From a virus, in the IMG/VR virus record IMGVR_UViG_3300001850_000162, positions 1-26,940 of that record: 26,940 nucleotides of DNA; one strand, written 5' to 3'. Shown piece by piece: positions 7,722-23,004 of the stretch (within the stretch, counting starts at the first letter, position 1; the number at the start of each line of letters is the position of its first letter). The position numbers and the translations under genes are program-made. The notes beneath the pieces are model-generated. The model was not told the origin of the DNA, searched no databases, and saw only the letters and a list, made by a program, of their open reading frames with translations.

Positions 7722-8048
7722 ATGGACCGAGCCACCTACTGTCTGAGCGTGTGCGGTGGCAGGTGTTGTACTCTCCACTTTCCGGGGGAAGCGCCCGTGC
7801 GCTGCCCGAAGCAGGCAGAGGACGGCTCGTGTTCCATCTACGCCACGCGGTACGCCGGGGACGACCCGACGCCGCTAGTGGTTGTGGGACAGTGGAAAAC
7901 TGACCGACTTCGGACGGTAGACGGCGACCCGGTGGTAATGCCGTTCTACTGTGGTCGAATCGAGGACTTAATTGGAGCTGGCGTTTTACATCCTGAAGTT
8001 GAGAGCCAGTGCTGTTATGCTCATCCTGAGCTACTAGAGGACAAGTAA
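7722..8048 (+). CDS. Cysteine-rich YkgJ-like putative metal-binding protein
   Basis: The chosen start is ATG 7722, just after the upstream stop; a longer frame reaches 7605 but overlaps the previous gene and encodes an Arg-rich implausible stretch. The 108-residue product has nine Cys: 7, 11, 15, 16, 28, 37, 77, 97 and 98. The pattern CLSVCGGRCC, then RCPKQAEDGSCSIYATRY (28-44), resembles the YkgJ / UPF0153 zinc- or iron-chelating domain, whose hallmark is clustered Cys followed by a Cys-Pro and a C-S-I-Y-x-x-R segment. Members are of uncertain function, thought to bind Zn or Fe-S. What such a protein does in a phage structural operon is unknown. The homology call is from memory of the motif. 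Confidence 0.65.
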   Translation: MDRATYCLSVCGGRCCTLHFPGEAPVRCPKQAEDGSCSIYATRYAGDDPTPLVVVGQWKTDRLRTVDGDPVVMPFYCGRIEDLIGAGVLHPEVESQCCYAHPELLEDK

Positions 8049-9498: not shown

Positions 9499-10554
9499 AT
9501 GGCATCAATTACTGGATCACAAACTAAGGCGGGGCTCAAGATTGCTCCAACTTGGGGCACTGCGGTAGCGTGCGGAGCTGGAGACTCACTCGCAGCCGAG
9601 ATTTCGCCCAACTTTAACGTAAGCGAGATTACTTCGCGTCAGATTGGTTCGGGAGCCTACATGCTTTCGTCAGCCACTCGCGGAAACCTCATCCCAACCG
9701 TCTCTCTGACGATGGACCTTGGGTACCGCAACAACGCTGACGTTCTTATCGCTCAGATGATGGGCACTTCGGCTATACCGACTGAGCAGAACGTAGGAGA
9801 GGGTGACTACCTTCACCGCATTTTGTTCAACAACGTCCTAAACTCAAAGTTCGTCACGCTTGCTTATGAAAGCTCATCGGCAACCACAGTAGAGTTCCCG
9901 ACATGTGCTGTTCAGTCGATTGGACTCTCTTCGACCTCAATACCAGGGTACATTGATTTTACGGCAGAGCTTCTGGCGTACGGCGTTGAGCTTGCTTCAG
10001 CGACCAACACCAACGCGAGCCTTGCAAACTGCACGTTCTCCGAGGGCACCCCGGAGCTTGTCGCTGTGGACTTCAGCGACAACTACCAGACCAACGATGC
10101 AAGTGGTGGAGCTGTCGCTGGCGGTGATCAGTATAATATCACTGGCTTTGAGCTTTCGCTTAATCGCCCGCAGGAAATCATCCCTGAGATCAAGGGTTCT
10201 GCCGGAAACTCTGCCCCTATCGGGACTGACCTTTTCGACGGCACATTCAACGTGAACGTGAAAGAGTTGGTGGACCACACCTACTACTCGATCTGGAACG
10301 CTGAAACTGCCCGTAAGGCAAAGATTGTGATCACTGGCAAGCAGATTAACAGCGGTGCCAACAAGAGCTTTACGATTTATCTACCCAAGATGCTTCTCGT
10401 GACAGAGCCACAGTACGCCCTGACTGACCCAGGGACGAACACGCTGGCGCTCAACTTCCGGCTCCTAAAGGCTTCTTCAAACCCAACCGGGATGAACAGC
10501 ACTTACCCGTACTTTGAGATTGTAAACACCCTGGCAACTTCGCTCCTAGCGTAG
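9499..10554 (+). CDS. Major tail tube protein
   Basis: A 351-residue protein that fits phage tail tube proteins of the long-form siphovirus type. The N-terminus (MASITGSQTKAGLKIAPTWG) has the typical opening, followed by a long beta-rich chain with few charged residues and repeated strand-turn patterns. It sits between tail terminator and tail assembly chaperone and is flanked by an AT-rich ribosome-binding leader and a strong terminator, which marks a highly expressed gene. Only one tube gene and no sheath gene are seen, so a contractile tail is unlikely. The second half (about 200-340) may be an added Ig-like or duplicated tube domain. Confidence 0.85.
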   Translation: MASITGSQTKAGLKIAPTWGTAVACGAGDSLAAEISPNFNVSEITSRQIGSGAYMLSSATRGNLIPTVSLTMDLGYRNNADVLIAQMMGTSAIPTEQNVGEGDYLHRILFNNVLNSKFVTLAYESSSATTVEFPTCAVQSIGLSSTSIPGYIDFTAELLAYGVELASATNTNASLANCTFSEGTPELVAVDFSDNYQTNDASGGAVAGGDQYNITGFELSLNRPQEIIPEIKGSAGNSAPIGTDLFDGTFNVNVKELVDHTYYSIWNAETARKAKIVITGKQINSGANKSFTIYLPKMLLVTEPQYALTDPGTNTLALNFRLLKASSNPTGMNSTYPYFEIVNTLATSLLA

Positions 10555-10580
10555 TTATAGGGAAACGGTAGGAAACTAAA

Positions 10581-10635
10581 GGGGGGTGGCTCAAATGGGA
10601 TAAAACCCATCTTGAGCTACCTCCCTTCTTATTCA
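10581..10635 (+). terminator. Rho-independent terminator after the tail tube gene
   Basis: GGTGGCTCAA (10585-10594) pairs with TTGAGCTACC (10612-10621) with one G-T pair, extended outward by G-runs to 10625 and inward by ATGGG (10595-10599) with CCCAT (10606-10610), one base bulged. The TTCTTATTC that follows is a modest T-rich tail. The stem is very stable and would reduce expression of the chaperone and tape measure genes. Confidence 0.85.
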
Positions 10636-10667
10636 TACTGGCGCTGTCAACTTTTTAGGAGATTCCC

Positions 10668-10985
10668 ATGATTATCGACTCCGATCTGGAAGTCGCCATT
10701 GGCGATGGCGTTGCTGTATTTGAAGAACCAACGCTGCGCGATTGGGCGGTGATGGTTGAGATGAGCAACAAGACGCTTGAGGAGCAGGCTGACATTATTC
10801 TGCCAAAGCTCAAGGCGCTTCGTGGCTTTGAATACAAGGACGGAAGTGAAGTTACGATTGACGACCTTCGCAACAAGAAGTTCAGCGCAAAGTTCTTCCT
10901 GATGCTGATTAAGGCGTGGTCGGCTGCCATTGTGTCTGGCTTGCGTGACGAGGCAGACTCAAAAAACGTCGTAACGGTCAACTAA
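10668..10985 (+). CDS. Tail assembly chaperone, short form (gpG analogue)
   Basis: The 105-residue zero-frame product sits between tail tube and tape measure genes, the classical place for the short tail assembly chaperone, which coats the tape measure protein during tail building and is not in the final virion. It is acidic and helical, with PTLRDWAVMVEMSNKTLEEQ and a long C-terminal helix KFFLMLIKAWSAAIVSGL. Like lambda gpG it has no recognisable enzyme motif. AGGAG lies 9 bases upstream of the ATG. The last codons contain a -1 slippery heptamer (10961-10967) that gives a longer product, listed separately. Confidence 0.85.
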   Translation: MIIDSDLEVAIGDGVAVFEEPTLRDWAVMVEMSNKTLEEQADIILPKLKALRGFEYKDGSEVTIDDLRNKKFSAKFFLMLIKAWSAAIVSGLRDEADSKNVVTVN

Positions 10986-11314
10986 TCCGGCTCCTGAAAT
11001 ATAGGCTGAATGAGCCAGGGCTAAACTGCCCTAATTGCCACGTTATTTACCTAAACAACGGCAAGGCTCCGGCGTGTATTTCAGGGAAGTGCCCGATTGT
11101 TGACATAGCAGGGAGCCGTAGGCTCAATCGGCTATGTGACGCCTTTCTACAGGTGGAGATCCTTGATCAGTCGAGTGGCTACGGCTCTTTTCAGGACAAA
11201 ATCATCCGAGATAGCGGTTTAGGCGAAGAAAGCGCAGAGACTATCTTGGAGATGAGACACGTTTTAGCGGAATATAGGGAGTGGAAGTCTAGGCAGAATA
11301 AAGGTGGCAAGTAA
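10668..11314 (+). CDS. Tail assembly chaperone, -1 frameshift product (gpGT analogue)
   Basis: A -1 shift at A_AAA_AAC (10961-10967) joins the first 100 residues of the short chaperone to 115 residues in the next frame, ending at TAA 11312-11314, which overlaps the tape measure ATG (TAATG). The -1 frame has a stop at 10946-10948 just upstream and the zero frame stops at 10983-10985, so slippage must occur in that 35-base window, and the heptamer is inside it and in the correct phase. There is no ATG for independent start of the second part until near its end. The added domain opens RRNGQLIRLLKYRLNEPG, then has a four-Cys motif C-x2-C-x12-C-x4-C, then a helical C-terminus. Lambda gpGT recruits the tape measure to the tube; the same job is inferred here. 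Confidence 0.88.
10961..10967 (+). other. -1 ribosomal frameshift site (slippery heptamer)
   Basis: A_AAA_AAC in the zero-frame phase (TCA AAA AAC) is a canonical X_XXY_YYZ site. Re-pairing of both tRNAs on AAA AAA is possible. A modest stem (10989-10993 with 11012-11016) lies 21 bases downstream and could assist, but it is short. Confidence 0.9.
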
Positions 11315-14300
11315 TGGCTGGCGGGTTTGGAGACGGAAATGACATTAAGATTACCGTCTCCCTCGATACTACCGATGCGGTCGCAGGGCTAGAAGCCCTG
11401 AAGGGTTCCCTTGAGAAAACCCTTGAAGCTGGCACAAAGCAGTTTGAGGATCTTGCCAAGGCGTCTGCCAAGATTAACGCAGCCGAAGTTGCCCGAATCA
11501 AGGCGGCGTCGGCAGAAAAGGTAGCGCAGCTAAAGCTAGAGAAGGCTGCCATCGACGAGAGAACACAGGCAGACGCCAAGGCTCAAGCTGCCATTGAGGC
11601 TGCCGCGCAGAAGCGGGCTGACCTAGCCAAGCGAGAACTAACCGAGATAAAGAACCGCGCAGCCGAGCGTTTGAACGCTCAGAAGATTGAGCTTAACTCT
11701 CAGAAAATACAGCTCGACAGCACGACGAGATACCTTGCCGAGCTGCAAAAAGAAGGCAAGACTTTCCGCGAGACTGAGGCGACAAAACGGGCTGAAATTC
11801 AAAAGACCATCGCCCTTATCAAGCAGCAAACTCAGGAAATTAAGCGCCAAAGCGCGGGCGCTGGTGCGGGTGGCAGCGGAGGGCTTCTTGCAGGCTTTGG
11901 GTCAGGAAAGCAGTTTTCTGGTCTTATCAACTCGCTTGGGCTGATAAATAGCTCGACGTTACGCACGATTGTCAGTGTCGGAAAATTCGGTGGCGCTATT
12001 GGCGTTGTGGCTGCCGCTGGCTACGGATATGTAAAGGCGGTCAATGCCATGACCGAGGCGAGCAACAAGCTCGCCGCAGAAGCCTTCAAGATAGAGGGTC
12101 TGCGAACGGGCTTTGAGAACCTACAGCGCACTGTAGGAAACGATCCGGGCGTATCAATCAACGCGCTCCGAAAAGCAACTCAAGGGTTAGTTACTGATAC
12201 AGAGCTATATCAGAGAGCCAACCAAGCGGTTCTTCTCGGAGTACCTACGGAGACGTTCAACGCCGCCGCTGCCGCTGCCGTTAAGCTCGGTCGAGCGATG
12301 GGCATTGACGCCTCTCAGGGTCTTGAGTCCCTGTCGCTCGGTTTGGGCAGACAGTCCAGGCTCTACCTCGACAACCTTGGCATCATCGTGTCTGCCGAGG
12401 AGGCGTACAAGCGTTTTGCCGCAGCCAACAACCTTGTCGCTTCGCAGCTAAGCGACGGTGAAAAGAAGGCGGCGTTCTATGCCGAGGCGCTACGCAAGAT
12501 TTACGAGAGAGCCGCAGAGCTACCCGATGCCATTGATTCCGTTGCCGTCTCGTACAAAAAACTAGAGGTAGTTCAGGGAAACATTCAACAGAAAAGCACG
12601 GAAGCGTTTAATAACTCAGTAGAGCTTGCGGGCGCGTATCGTAGGCTTACAAAAGCCACCGAAGATTCAGGCGAAGCATCAAAACGATTCGCTATATTGT
12701 TCTCAGAAATAGCCGCGCCGTTCGTCAGAGCGAAAGCCTCTTTAGTAGATTTTATCACATCGCTAAAAGAAGGGGCGCTTTTCCTTGCGAGTTTTGTTCT
12801 CCCGACAACTGAGGCAGAGCAATTTGCCGCCGCGTTTGAGAGGCTTGCAGCGGCTCAACGAGAGGGCGCGGCGCTTCGCTACTTTGGTCAATATGCCAAG
12901 GCGGCAGAGGTTGAAGCTGAAGGCTTCAAAAAGGCTGCCGACTCTATTGAAGTATTAGTTCAAAAAGAAGCGGCGGCAACGAGGTCAACGGAGGCGTACG
13001 CAAAAGCAGTCGAATCGCTCAAAGCACAAAAGGCTGCCCTCGGAGATACAGATTCCAAAGCGGCTAAGTTTTTAGATCAGCAAATTGCTCAAGCTGAAGC
13101 CCTAGCCCGTGTATCGGAGTCACAGTCAAGCGCCCTCCAAAGAAACATAAGCGAACAAAGGCAAGCCCTTCAAGAGCGCGTGGCGCTGGCAGAGCAGGCG
13201 GCACGAGCCGAAGAGGAATCCATCTCGCAGCAACAACAGTTTAACGAGTTTTTGGTTAGGAACTTTGCAAAACAGCTAGATGGGATTTTCAACCTGCCGC
13301 TTGAGAAGTTGGTTGTTCAAAAGTTTGTTTCCGATGATGCACTCCGAGAGCTTGAGGATGCCAAAAATGCCCTAAATGTTTTTGAGGGAACATTAAATCA
13401 GGCGAGAGCCAATGCAGAAAAGCCAATCACTCTTCGCATCGACACGACAGAAATAGATGCGGCTGCAAATCGCTTACCAGAGCTATTCAATAAAATTCTT
13501 CAATCTGCGAGCCGAGACGTTGGCGTGTTTACTATCCCTGGTGTGGATAGCAGCAGCCTGGACAATGCCCTTGGACAAATAAGCACTATTGAGGAAAGGT
13601 TTAGAGTTGGAAAAATTAGCGCCCAGGATTATGTGGCAGCTCTCAGGGAGGCAACCACAGAACTTGGAAACCTGGTTGGTGAGGGGAGAATCGCAACGCT
13701 CTCTGCTCAACTTCAGGAGCTACAGAACGTCGTTGATAGCGGCGGAACACTCACAACCGAGCAGACTCAAAGCTATAGTGATCTAAGCAGGGCGCTGGAC
13801 GCCGCAAGGGAGTCTGCCTCCGCGTCAGCGCAAGCTACCGAAGAGCTTGGTGTGGCTATTGAATATGCTCGAAAGCAGGGGCAAAAAGCGGCGGGCGAAT
13901 TTCAACGCGACCAAAAGAAAATCTCCTCGGCAGTCGAGAAGGAGTCGAAGAAGGCAGCTAACGAGTACAAGAAATTTGTACGCGACCTAAATCGCACTTT
14001 TAATCAGGCGATTCCGAAGGATCTACAGAAAAAACTCACCGATCTTTTCAACACAGGAAAAATCGGTTCCAAGGAGTTTATCGAGGAGCTAGACAAGCTA
14101 GGCGAGGAAGCTATTAAAACGGGCGTCGATATTGAGGCGCTAAAGAAAGAGATCGAGGCGCTTAATAAGCTAAAAATTGAGAACCCGCTGAGAGATATAA
14201 AAGTAGACTCCACCACCGAGTCAAACATCCGAGACATAGAAAGCCAACTAGGCGACGTATTTAACATCAAAAAGCTCTTTGGCGGGGATACGTCTGGAGG

Positions 14301-21150: not shown

Positions 21151-23004
21151 ATGACTTACAGCGACGATTTTGACATACGAACTCCAGCGGTAAAGTTTAA
21201 TGACGTTGCCAACGCCATTGACGGTGTATTGACTCGCACTTACACCTCCAACGTGACGGGCACGAGCACCGCGTACATCGCGTCTCCGAACCCCCCGTGG
21301 TCAAGCTACGACTCGGCAGCCTTCCTGGTATTCGTGCCCCATGTAACATGCGGGACAGCTCCGAAAATCAAAGTGAGCGACTTGAGCTTTAAGGACTTAA
21401 AGCGAAACGGCACATCGCTTGTCGCGGGCGACCTCCAGGCAAACGTGCCAATAATGATCATTTATAACGGAAGCTGGTTTGAAACACTGGTTGTGGGCGA
21501 CTCGTATCTAGCGCCTCTTTACATCGACCGAACCAATCAGCGTATAGGCGTTGGAACAGCCAGCCCACTAGCTCGGCTATCCGTCGATCCAGGCGTCATC
21601 CAAATAAATCAAAACGCTAATAGCGCCAATAACTTCTATTTGAGCGCGGAGGCGAATGACGGGCTTCTAAGGCTCTACAACGGAAACTATGACACTGGTA
21701 CCGTCAAGGCGCTGTTTGGGAACAACGGGCACACTCTATATGGTCCAACAAGCGACTCGACGACCTCGACCTTATTGCTCCTTGGTGGGGTTGGAAGTGC
21801 TAAAAAGATACAGTTTATATCGTCTACAACTGCGGGCGCGTTCTCATCAATCGTGTCAGCGGGAAACTCGGCAATAGTCGCATCAGGATCGGCAGTTGAT
21901 ACGCAGGATCTTGTTATAGCCCCCTGGAGCACTCTAGGGGCTGGAATTAAAATAAAGGGGTCGAATGGCTACGTCGGAGTTGGCGAAGGCTCACCCCTAA
22001 CGGCGCTGCACTTTAAGCACTCTGTGCCGACGTTTACGATACAGGACTCCGACGCTGCGGCTGGTGTGTATGCGACCATTAGTGCTTCGGGAACAGTGGG
22101 CTCTCTTGTGCTTGCCGCAGACCCAGGCAACGCTGGTGCGTCTACGACGCTAAAGCTGGCAGTCGATGGGACAGACAGGCTTGAAATTAACTCTCAGGGC
22201 AACTTAGGAGTCGGCGTCGCCCCTGATGCAAGCAATCGCTCTCTATGGGTTCACGGGGCGTCGTCAACTATCTCCAGTCTCATTTTGACAAACTCTACGA
22301 CGGGCACTACGGCTGCCAATCAGACTAAAGTGGAGTTAAGTGGAAATGATATTTCCCTCCAGTCAAACGGCAGCGGAACAGCGATGCTATGGGCTGGAGC
22401 TGACGCAAACTTAGGAAAGCTCATAGCGTATTCAACCACGGGAGTAGTGAAAGCGTTTGGTTACTTTGAAACGACGCTGCAAACTAAGCTCGGAGTTGGG
22501 TACTCGTCTGCATATTCATCCTTTTCGGGAACATTTAATGGGACGACGAGTGTTTACGAAGCAAGGATGATTGCTGATGGTATTCAAACGGATATTGGTA
22601 TCCGTTTAGATACTAAAAACAACGGCAAGCTGTATTGTGATGCGGTCTACGCGCAAACCTCCGGTAGTTCAGCCAACGTGGTTATCGGATCAAATGGAGG
22701 ACTGGTGCGAGCTGGCTCTTCCTCAATCAGATACAAAAAGAACATTGAGCCGATGTCTAAAGGTCTTGCCGTCGTTGAGGCGCTTCAGCCCGTGACTTTT
22801 GAGACTAAAAATTCGGAGGAAGAGGGTGTCCGGTTTCTAGGCTTCATCGCCGAAGAGGTCGAAAAAGCTGGTTTGCCTGAAGTAATCGTTTACCGAGATA
22901 ACTTACCAGACGCGCTCTCGTACGACCGTTTTTGCGCCGTTTTAGTCAACGCCGTGAAAGAACTATCGGAGAAGGTGAAGCAGTTAGAAGCTCGGCTGCC
23001 ATAG
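21151..23004 (+). CDS. Tail fibre or spike with S74 self-cleaving chaperone
   Basis: A 617-residue receptor-binding-type protein. Residues about 60-115 match a common fibre beta module (KVSDLSFKDLKRNGTSLVAG, then a YNGSWFETL end). Glycine-rich turns of the VGxG..P..L type recur at about residues 133 (GVGTASPLARL), 274, 351 and 447, as in trimeric beta-helical spikes. The C-terminus is an S74-type intramolecular chaperone: S524-S-I-R-Y-K529-K-N-I, where S524 is the probable nucleophile and K529 the base, so cleavage before S524 would release about 94 residues after the trimer folds. The last part is a coiled coil (VNAVKELSEKVKQLEARL). Start ATG 21151 follows a purine-rich site. S74 is the most certain part of the call. 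Confidence 0.88.
   Translation: MTYSDDFDIRTPAVKFNDVANAIDGVLTRTYTSNVTGTSTAYIASPNPPWSSYDSAAFLVFVPHVTCGTAPKIKVSDLSFKDLKRNGTSLVAGDLQANVPIMIIYNGSWFETLVVGDSYLAPLYIDRTNQRIGVGTASPLARLSVDPGVIQINQNANSANNFYLSAEANDGLLRLYNGNYDTGTVKALFGNNGHTLYGPTSDSTTSTLLLLGGVGSAKKIQFISSTTAGAFSSIVSAGNSAIVASGSAVDTQDLVIAPWSTLGAGIKIKGSNGYVGVGEGSPLTALHFKHSVPTFTIQDSDAAAGVYATISASGTVGSLVLAADPGNAGASTTLKLAVDGTDRLEINSQGNLGVGVAPDASNRSLWVHGASSTISSLILTNSTTGTTAANQTKVELSGNDISLQSNGSGTAMLWAGADANLGKLIAYSTTGVVKAFGYFETTLQTKLGVGYSSAYSSFSGTFNGTTSVYEARMIADGIQTDIGIRLDTKNNGKLYCDAVYAQTSGSSANVVIGSNGGLVRAGSSSIRYKKNIEPMSKGLAVVEALQPVTFETKNSEEEGVRFLGFIAEEVEKAGLPEVIVYRDNLPDALSYDRFCAVLVNAVKELSEKVKQLEARLP

Follow-up and report, generated by a model that had tools for sequence, protein, structure and literature searches.

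In phage lambda, two overlapping open reading frames (ORFs), flanked by the tail tube gene and the tape measure gene, encode gpG and gpGT. A -1 slip at an XXXYYYZ heptamer (G_GGA_AAG) late in the first ORF adds an extension that has no start codon of its own. In phage P2, the corresponding E/E+E' frameshift takes place at T_TTT_TTG. Frameshifting of the G-T type is widely conserved in long-tailed phages, and the members of this chaperone class are known for their low mutual similarity (PMC5009743). A g-t frameshift at A_AAA_AAC has been reported for the haloarchaeal siphovirus HCTV-2, although in E. coli, which may not be the host of the virus considered here, this heptamer promotes shifting far less readily than A_AAA_AAG does (PMC5009743). 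One insertion sequence (IS) cluster with an A_AAA_AAC frameshift is listed as proven (PMC4066793), and rates of 6-7% have been measured in an HK97-like chaperone cluster (PMC3711429).

The stretch analyzed here, referred to as the window, is IMG/VR virus record IMGVR_UViG_3300001850_000162 (1-26,940; 26,940 nt), from an uncultivated phage. Two overlapping ORFs lie directly upstream of its tape measure gene, which is the architecture expected of G/GT chaperones (Table 1). The locus very probably uses a programmed -1 ribosomal frameshift of the G/GT type to make its tail assembly chaperone, a reading that fits the overlap of the ORFs, their place next to the tape measure gene, and the lack of a usable start codon in the second. 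The arrangement is that of lambda, including the late position of the heptamer in the first ORF and the lack of a start for the extension, but the heptamer is A_AAA_AAC, the -1 domain carries four invariant cysteines, and there is no detectable similarity to known families. HCTV-2 has the same heptamer at the same gene position but an archaeal host, and showed no sequence relation in phage-collection searches. The P2 heptamer is the one found in a distant relative of the window (L043, see below), in a gene of the same putative role, but P2 is a myovirus and no sequence similarity was seen. The bacterial IS example shows that A_AAA_AAC can work in bacteria, although in a transposition gene rather than a tail gene.

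Table 1. Features of the chaperone locus and flanking genes, in window coordinates.
Feature	Position	Strand	Remarks
Putative major tail (tube) protein gene, 351 aa	9499-10554	+	Directly upstream; assigned by position only
Zero-frame ORF, predicted G-like short chaperone, 105 aa	10668-10985	+	Start ATG 10668; 70-78% aa identity in nearer lineages
TGA closing the -1 frame, upstream of the heptamer	10946-10948	+	Read from sequence
GAGG, Shine-Dalgarno-like candidate 5' stimulator	10950-10953	+	7 nt before the heptamer; putative role
Slippery heptamer A_AAA_AAC, in phase	10961-10967	+	Zero-frame codons TCA AAA AAC; X_XXY_YYZ phase
-1 frame extension, predicted T-like domain, 115 codons + TAA, four invariant cysteines	10967-11314	+	Open in 11 lineages
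Candidate 3' stem-loop	10977-11041	+	Columns 10-74 of alignment A11; covariation; stem onset 9-15 nt past the heptamer
Zero-frame stop TAA	10983-10985	+	Read from sequence
Tape measure protein gene, 1904 aa	11314-17028	+	PHROGs phrog_24, E 6.8e-4

A preliminary description, made from the window sequence alone, had placed an in-phase heptamer and two limiting stop codons at this site, and all three are found on direct reading, the heptamer as TC[A AAA AAC], close to the 3' end of the 105-codon ORF. Its argument that slippage is permitted only between the two stops, with the heptamer inside, holds; the size of 35 bases that it gave does not, as the two frames overlap by 37 nt if the zero-frame stop is counted and by 34 nt if it is not. 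The first -1 codon past the slip is CGT (10967-10969), and the frame runs, as had been described, through 115 codons to a TAA (11312-11314) that shares its last A with the tape measure ATG (11314-11316). The stretch that a gene caller was expected to leave as a 328-base gap counts to exactly that length (10986-11313).

The PHROGs match of the downstream protein to a tape measure family has a parallel in L043, where the counterpart matches phrog_3779 (E 2.4e-4). At 1904 aa, the tape measure ORF of the window is about twice the length of the L043 one (968 aa), and its residues 1041-1076 form a glycine-zipper-like stretch. Searches of Pfam, PHROGs, PDB sequences and isolate phages gave no convincing match for either half of the chaperone or for the putative tail tube protein; a single isolate-phage match to the -1 ORF was weak and partial (E 0.9), and was taken as chance. 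AlphaFold produced a poor model of the short form (pLDDT 50), too poor to use, and a moderate one of the extension (pLDDT 71) for which no fold match was found. Since neither half matches a known family, the putative chaperone role was assigned by synteny and architecture; the sequence family is new, while the frameshift is of a known kind. The putative tail tube ORF keeps its synteny and is 50-75% conserved in relatives. Elsewhere in the window, the head-tail region encodes a small cysteine-rich protein (7722-8045; CxxxCGGxCC...) that has a counterpart in L043 (9776-10105) and no Pfam match, and a fibre-like protein (21151-23004) ends in an intramolecular chaperone domain (C-terminal Peptidase_S74, E 1.5e-10).

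Relatives were reached via the portal protein, the capsid, and alignments of both chaperone halves. In IMG/VR, the portal protein search gave nine loci and a single-sequence search with the -1 ORF gave no relative; none was found in the prokaryote genomes scanned. Once duplicates were removed, the site was covered by eleven distinct lineages, the window itself and ten from other metagenome contigs, namely L014 (= L008-L010), L012 (= L013), L016, L017 (= L011), L018 (= L005), L023, L053 (= L054), L055, L056 and L043 (= L057). The -1 ORF is open in all ten further lineages, with 38-71% amino acid identity. It begins behind a stop in every one of the eleven, with an overlap to the zero-frame stop of 28-79 nt, and terminates at the tape measure start or next to it wherever the contig extends that far (the L018 contig runs out inside the extension). 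L043 is divergent, with identities of 55% for the capsid, 50% for the putative tail tube and 38-40% for the extension. A relative whose tail is intact but whose -1 frame contains stops had been set beforehand as refuting the frameshift; such relatives were sought, and there were none among the eleven lineages.

A_AAA_AAC occurs in the same phase three times in the genes of the window; since the heptamer is not rare in itself, it is the comparison between lineages that has to carry the case. It is in phase in ten of the eleven, and L043 (with its duplicate L057), among the most divergent, has an in-phase T_TTT_TTG at the same place instead (L043 12946-12952). The first A of A_AAA_AAC belongs to a TCA, GCA, GGA, CCA, GAA or CAA codon, specifying six amino acids with a constant third-position A, so it is the base and not the residue that is kept. 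The Lys codon at the A_AAA_AAC site is always AAA, though AAG makes up 73% of the Lys codons of the window. That one slippery heptamer has been swapped for another at this position is strong evidence for function. As the -1 frame is open and conserved in all eleven lineages, each with a slippery heptamer, the proposal of a programmed -1 frameshift yielding a long tail assembly chaperone, put forward in the preliminary description, is supported.

Nearly the same fusion would arise if RNA polymerase added an A within the A6-A7 run, so that some mRNAs encoded both halves in one frame, and a homopolymer run is indeed present in all lineages (A6 mostly, A7 in L053, L055 and L056, and T6 in L043). 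However, six to seven residues are few for polymerase slippage, which usually takes runs of about 8-9 residues or longer, or fewer where a stem-loop is present, and here the run stays short and always closes as an X_XXY_YYZ heptamer. Known tail chaperone fusions use ribosomal slippage (PMC5009743), and we regard the transcriptional route as improbable.

In six lineages, variable sites fall at zero-frame position 3 as far as the heptamer and at position 2 beyond it; as zero-frame position 2 is position 3 of the -1 frame, the variability switches frame at the heptamer. Downstream of it, pS is well above pN in the -1 frame only (six lineages). The second ORF, which lacks a start of its own, is thus conserved in the shifted frame and selected there at the protein level, and this conservation extends from the heptamer onward. 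The extension contains four invariant cysteines, arranged as a CxxC pair followed 12 residues on by a second pair, and the same pattern is seen in L053, L055 and L056. No ATG, GTG or TTG upstream of the conserved cysteine region is shared across lineages. The -1 ORF could in principle be a separate gene, with its own start or reached by reinitiation past the zero-frame stop: the stop and the ORF are adjacent, so that coupling is possible, near-cognate CTG and ATT codons are present, and a TTG lies at the zero-frame stop of L053 and another in the overlap of L043. In the window, however, the first ATG, GTG or TTG of the -1 frame is codon 64, past all four cysteines, and L055 and L056 have no early start codon in this frame, so a protein initiated separately would lack the conserved domain; conservation, moreover, already begins at the heptamer. 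Independent initiation is therefore very unlikely. A sequencing or assembly error that split one continuous gene, for which the A6 run is an error-prone context, is extremely unlikely given that ten further distinct lineages on other metagenome contigs have the same frame relation, one of them with a T6 run.

Ribosomal frameshifting may be aided by sequences on either side of the heptamer. GAGG is found 7-8 nt upstream in nine of the eleven lineages, as GGAGG in several; it is present in L043 too, but in a different codon phase. It resembles the Shine-Dalgarno-like stimulator of dnaX, where the spacing is about 10 nt rather than 7-8 nt. On the 3' side, a stem-loop is common to eight lineages; 86-88% of its cells are paired and its covariation score is higher than in any of 500 shuffles, while slid versions scored much worse. 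Compared with synonymous shuffles, downstream folding energy is low in L014, L012, L016 and L055 (z -2.4 to -3.8), but the window folds no better than its shuffles (z -0.25), and L017 and L053 are also not low; single-sequence folding was accordingly rejected as proof of a stimulator. Both the GAGG and the stem-loop probably act as stimulators, though weak ones in the window itself.

Under programmed ribosomal frameshifting, most ribosomes would translate the first ORF to its stop and release the 105-aa chaperone, while a minority would slip back one base on A_AAA_AAC, probably aided by the upstream GAGG and the downstream stem-loop. The slipped ribosomes would read 115 more codons in the -1 frame to give a fusion of about 215 aa, with an extra domain bearing the four cysteines. 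On the model of lambda gpG/gpGT, the 105-aa form would serve to coat the tape measure protein, and the task of the fusion would be to recruit tail tube subunits. The architecture, the heptamer, the conservation and the selection on the -1 frame are established here, and slippage, its rate, the stimulators and the protein roles are inferred; the programmed frameshift is very probable, and it is ordinary in kind.

A strong terminator-like hairpin (10578-10628), with a stem of about 21 bp (z about -7) followed by a T-rich tail, lies in the gap of 113 nt that separates the chaperone gene from the putative tail tube gene. It was not listed by a terminator pattern scan, and Rfam, run over 10500-11400, gave only sub-threshold microRNA matches on it, which were taken as chance. 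Hairpins of differing sequence occur in the same gap in L014, L012, L016, L017, L018, L023 and L043 (with a T7 tail), making eight lineages with the window, while L055 and L056, with gaps of 7 and 28 nt, have none. In L017 there are two consecutive long hairpins rather than one (2575-2716). The hairpin could lower expression of the chaperone relative to the tail tube. It is tentatively suggested that chaperone dose may be set twice, with an intrinsic terminator cutting transcription and the frameshift fixing the ratio of short to long form, and that the T domain of the long form may be new and metal-binding-like, as its four cysteines hint.

The programmed frameshift proposed here would extend the lambda G/GT rule to a group of uncultivated phages without a recognizable chaperone sequence. 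It would also supply well-supported phage examples of A_AAA_AAC, which is a weak heptamer in E. coli, together with its replacement by T_TTT_TTG in a relative, and it annotates half of a protein that a standard gene caller would miss.
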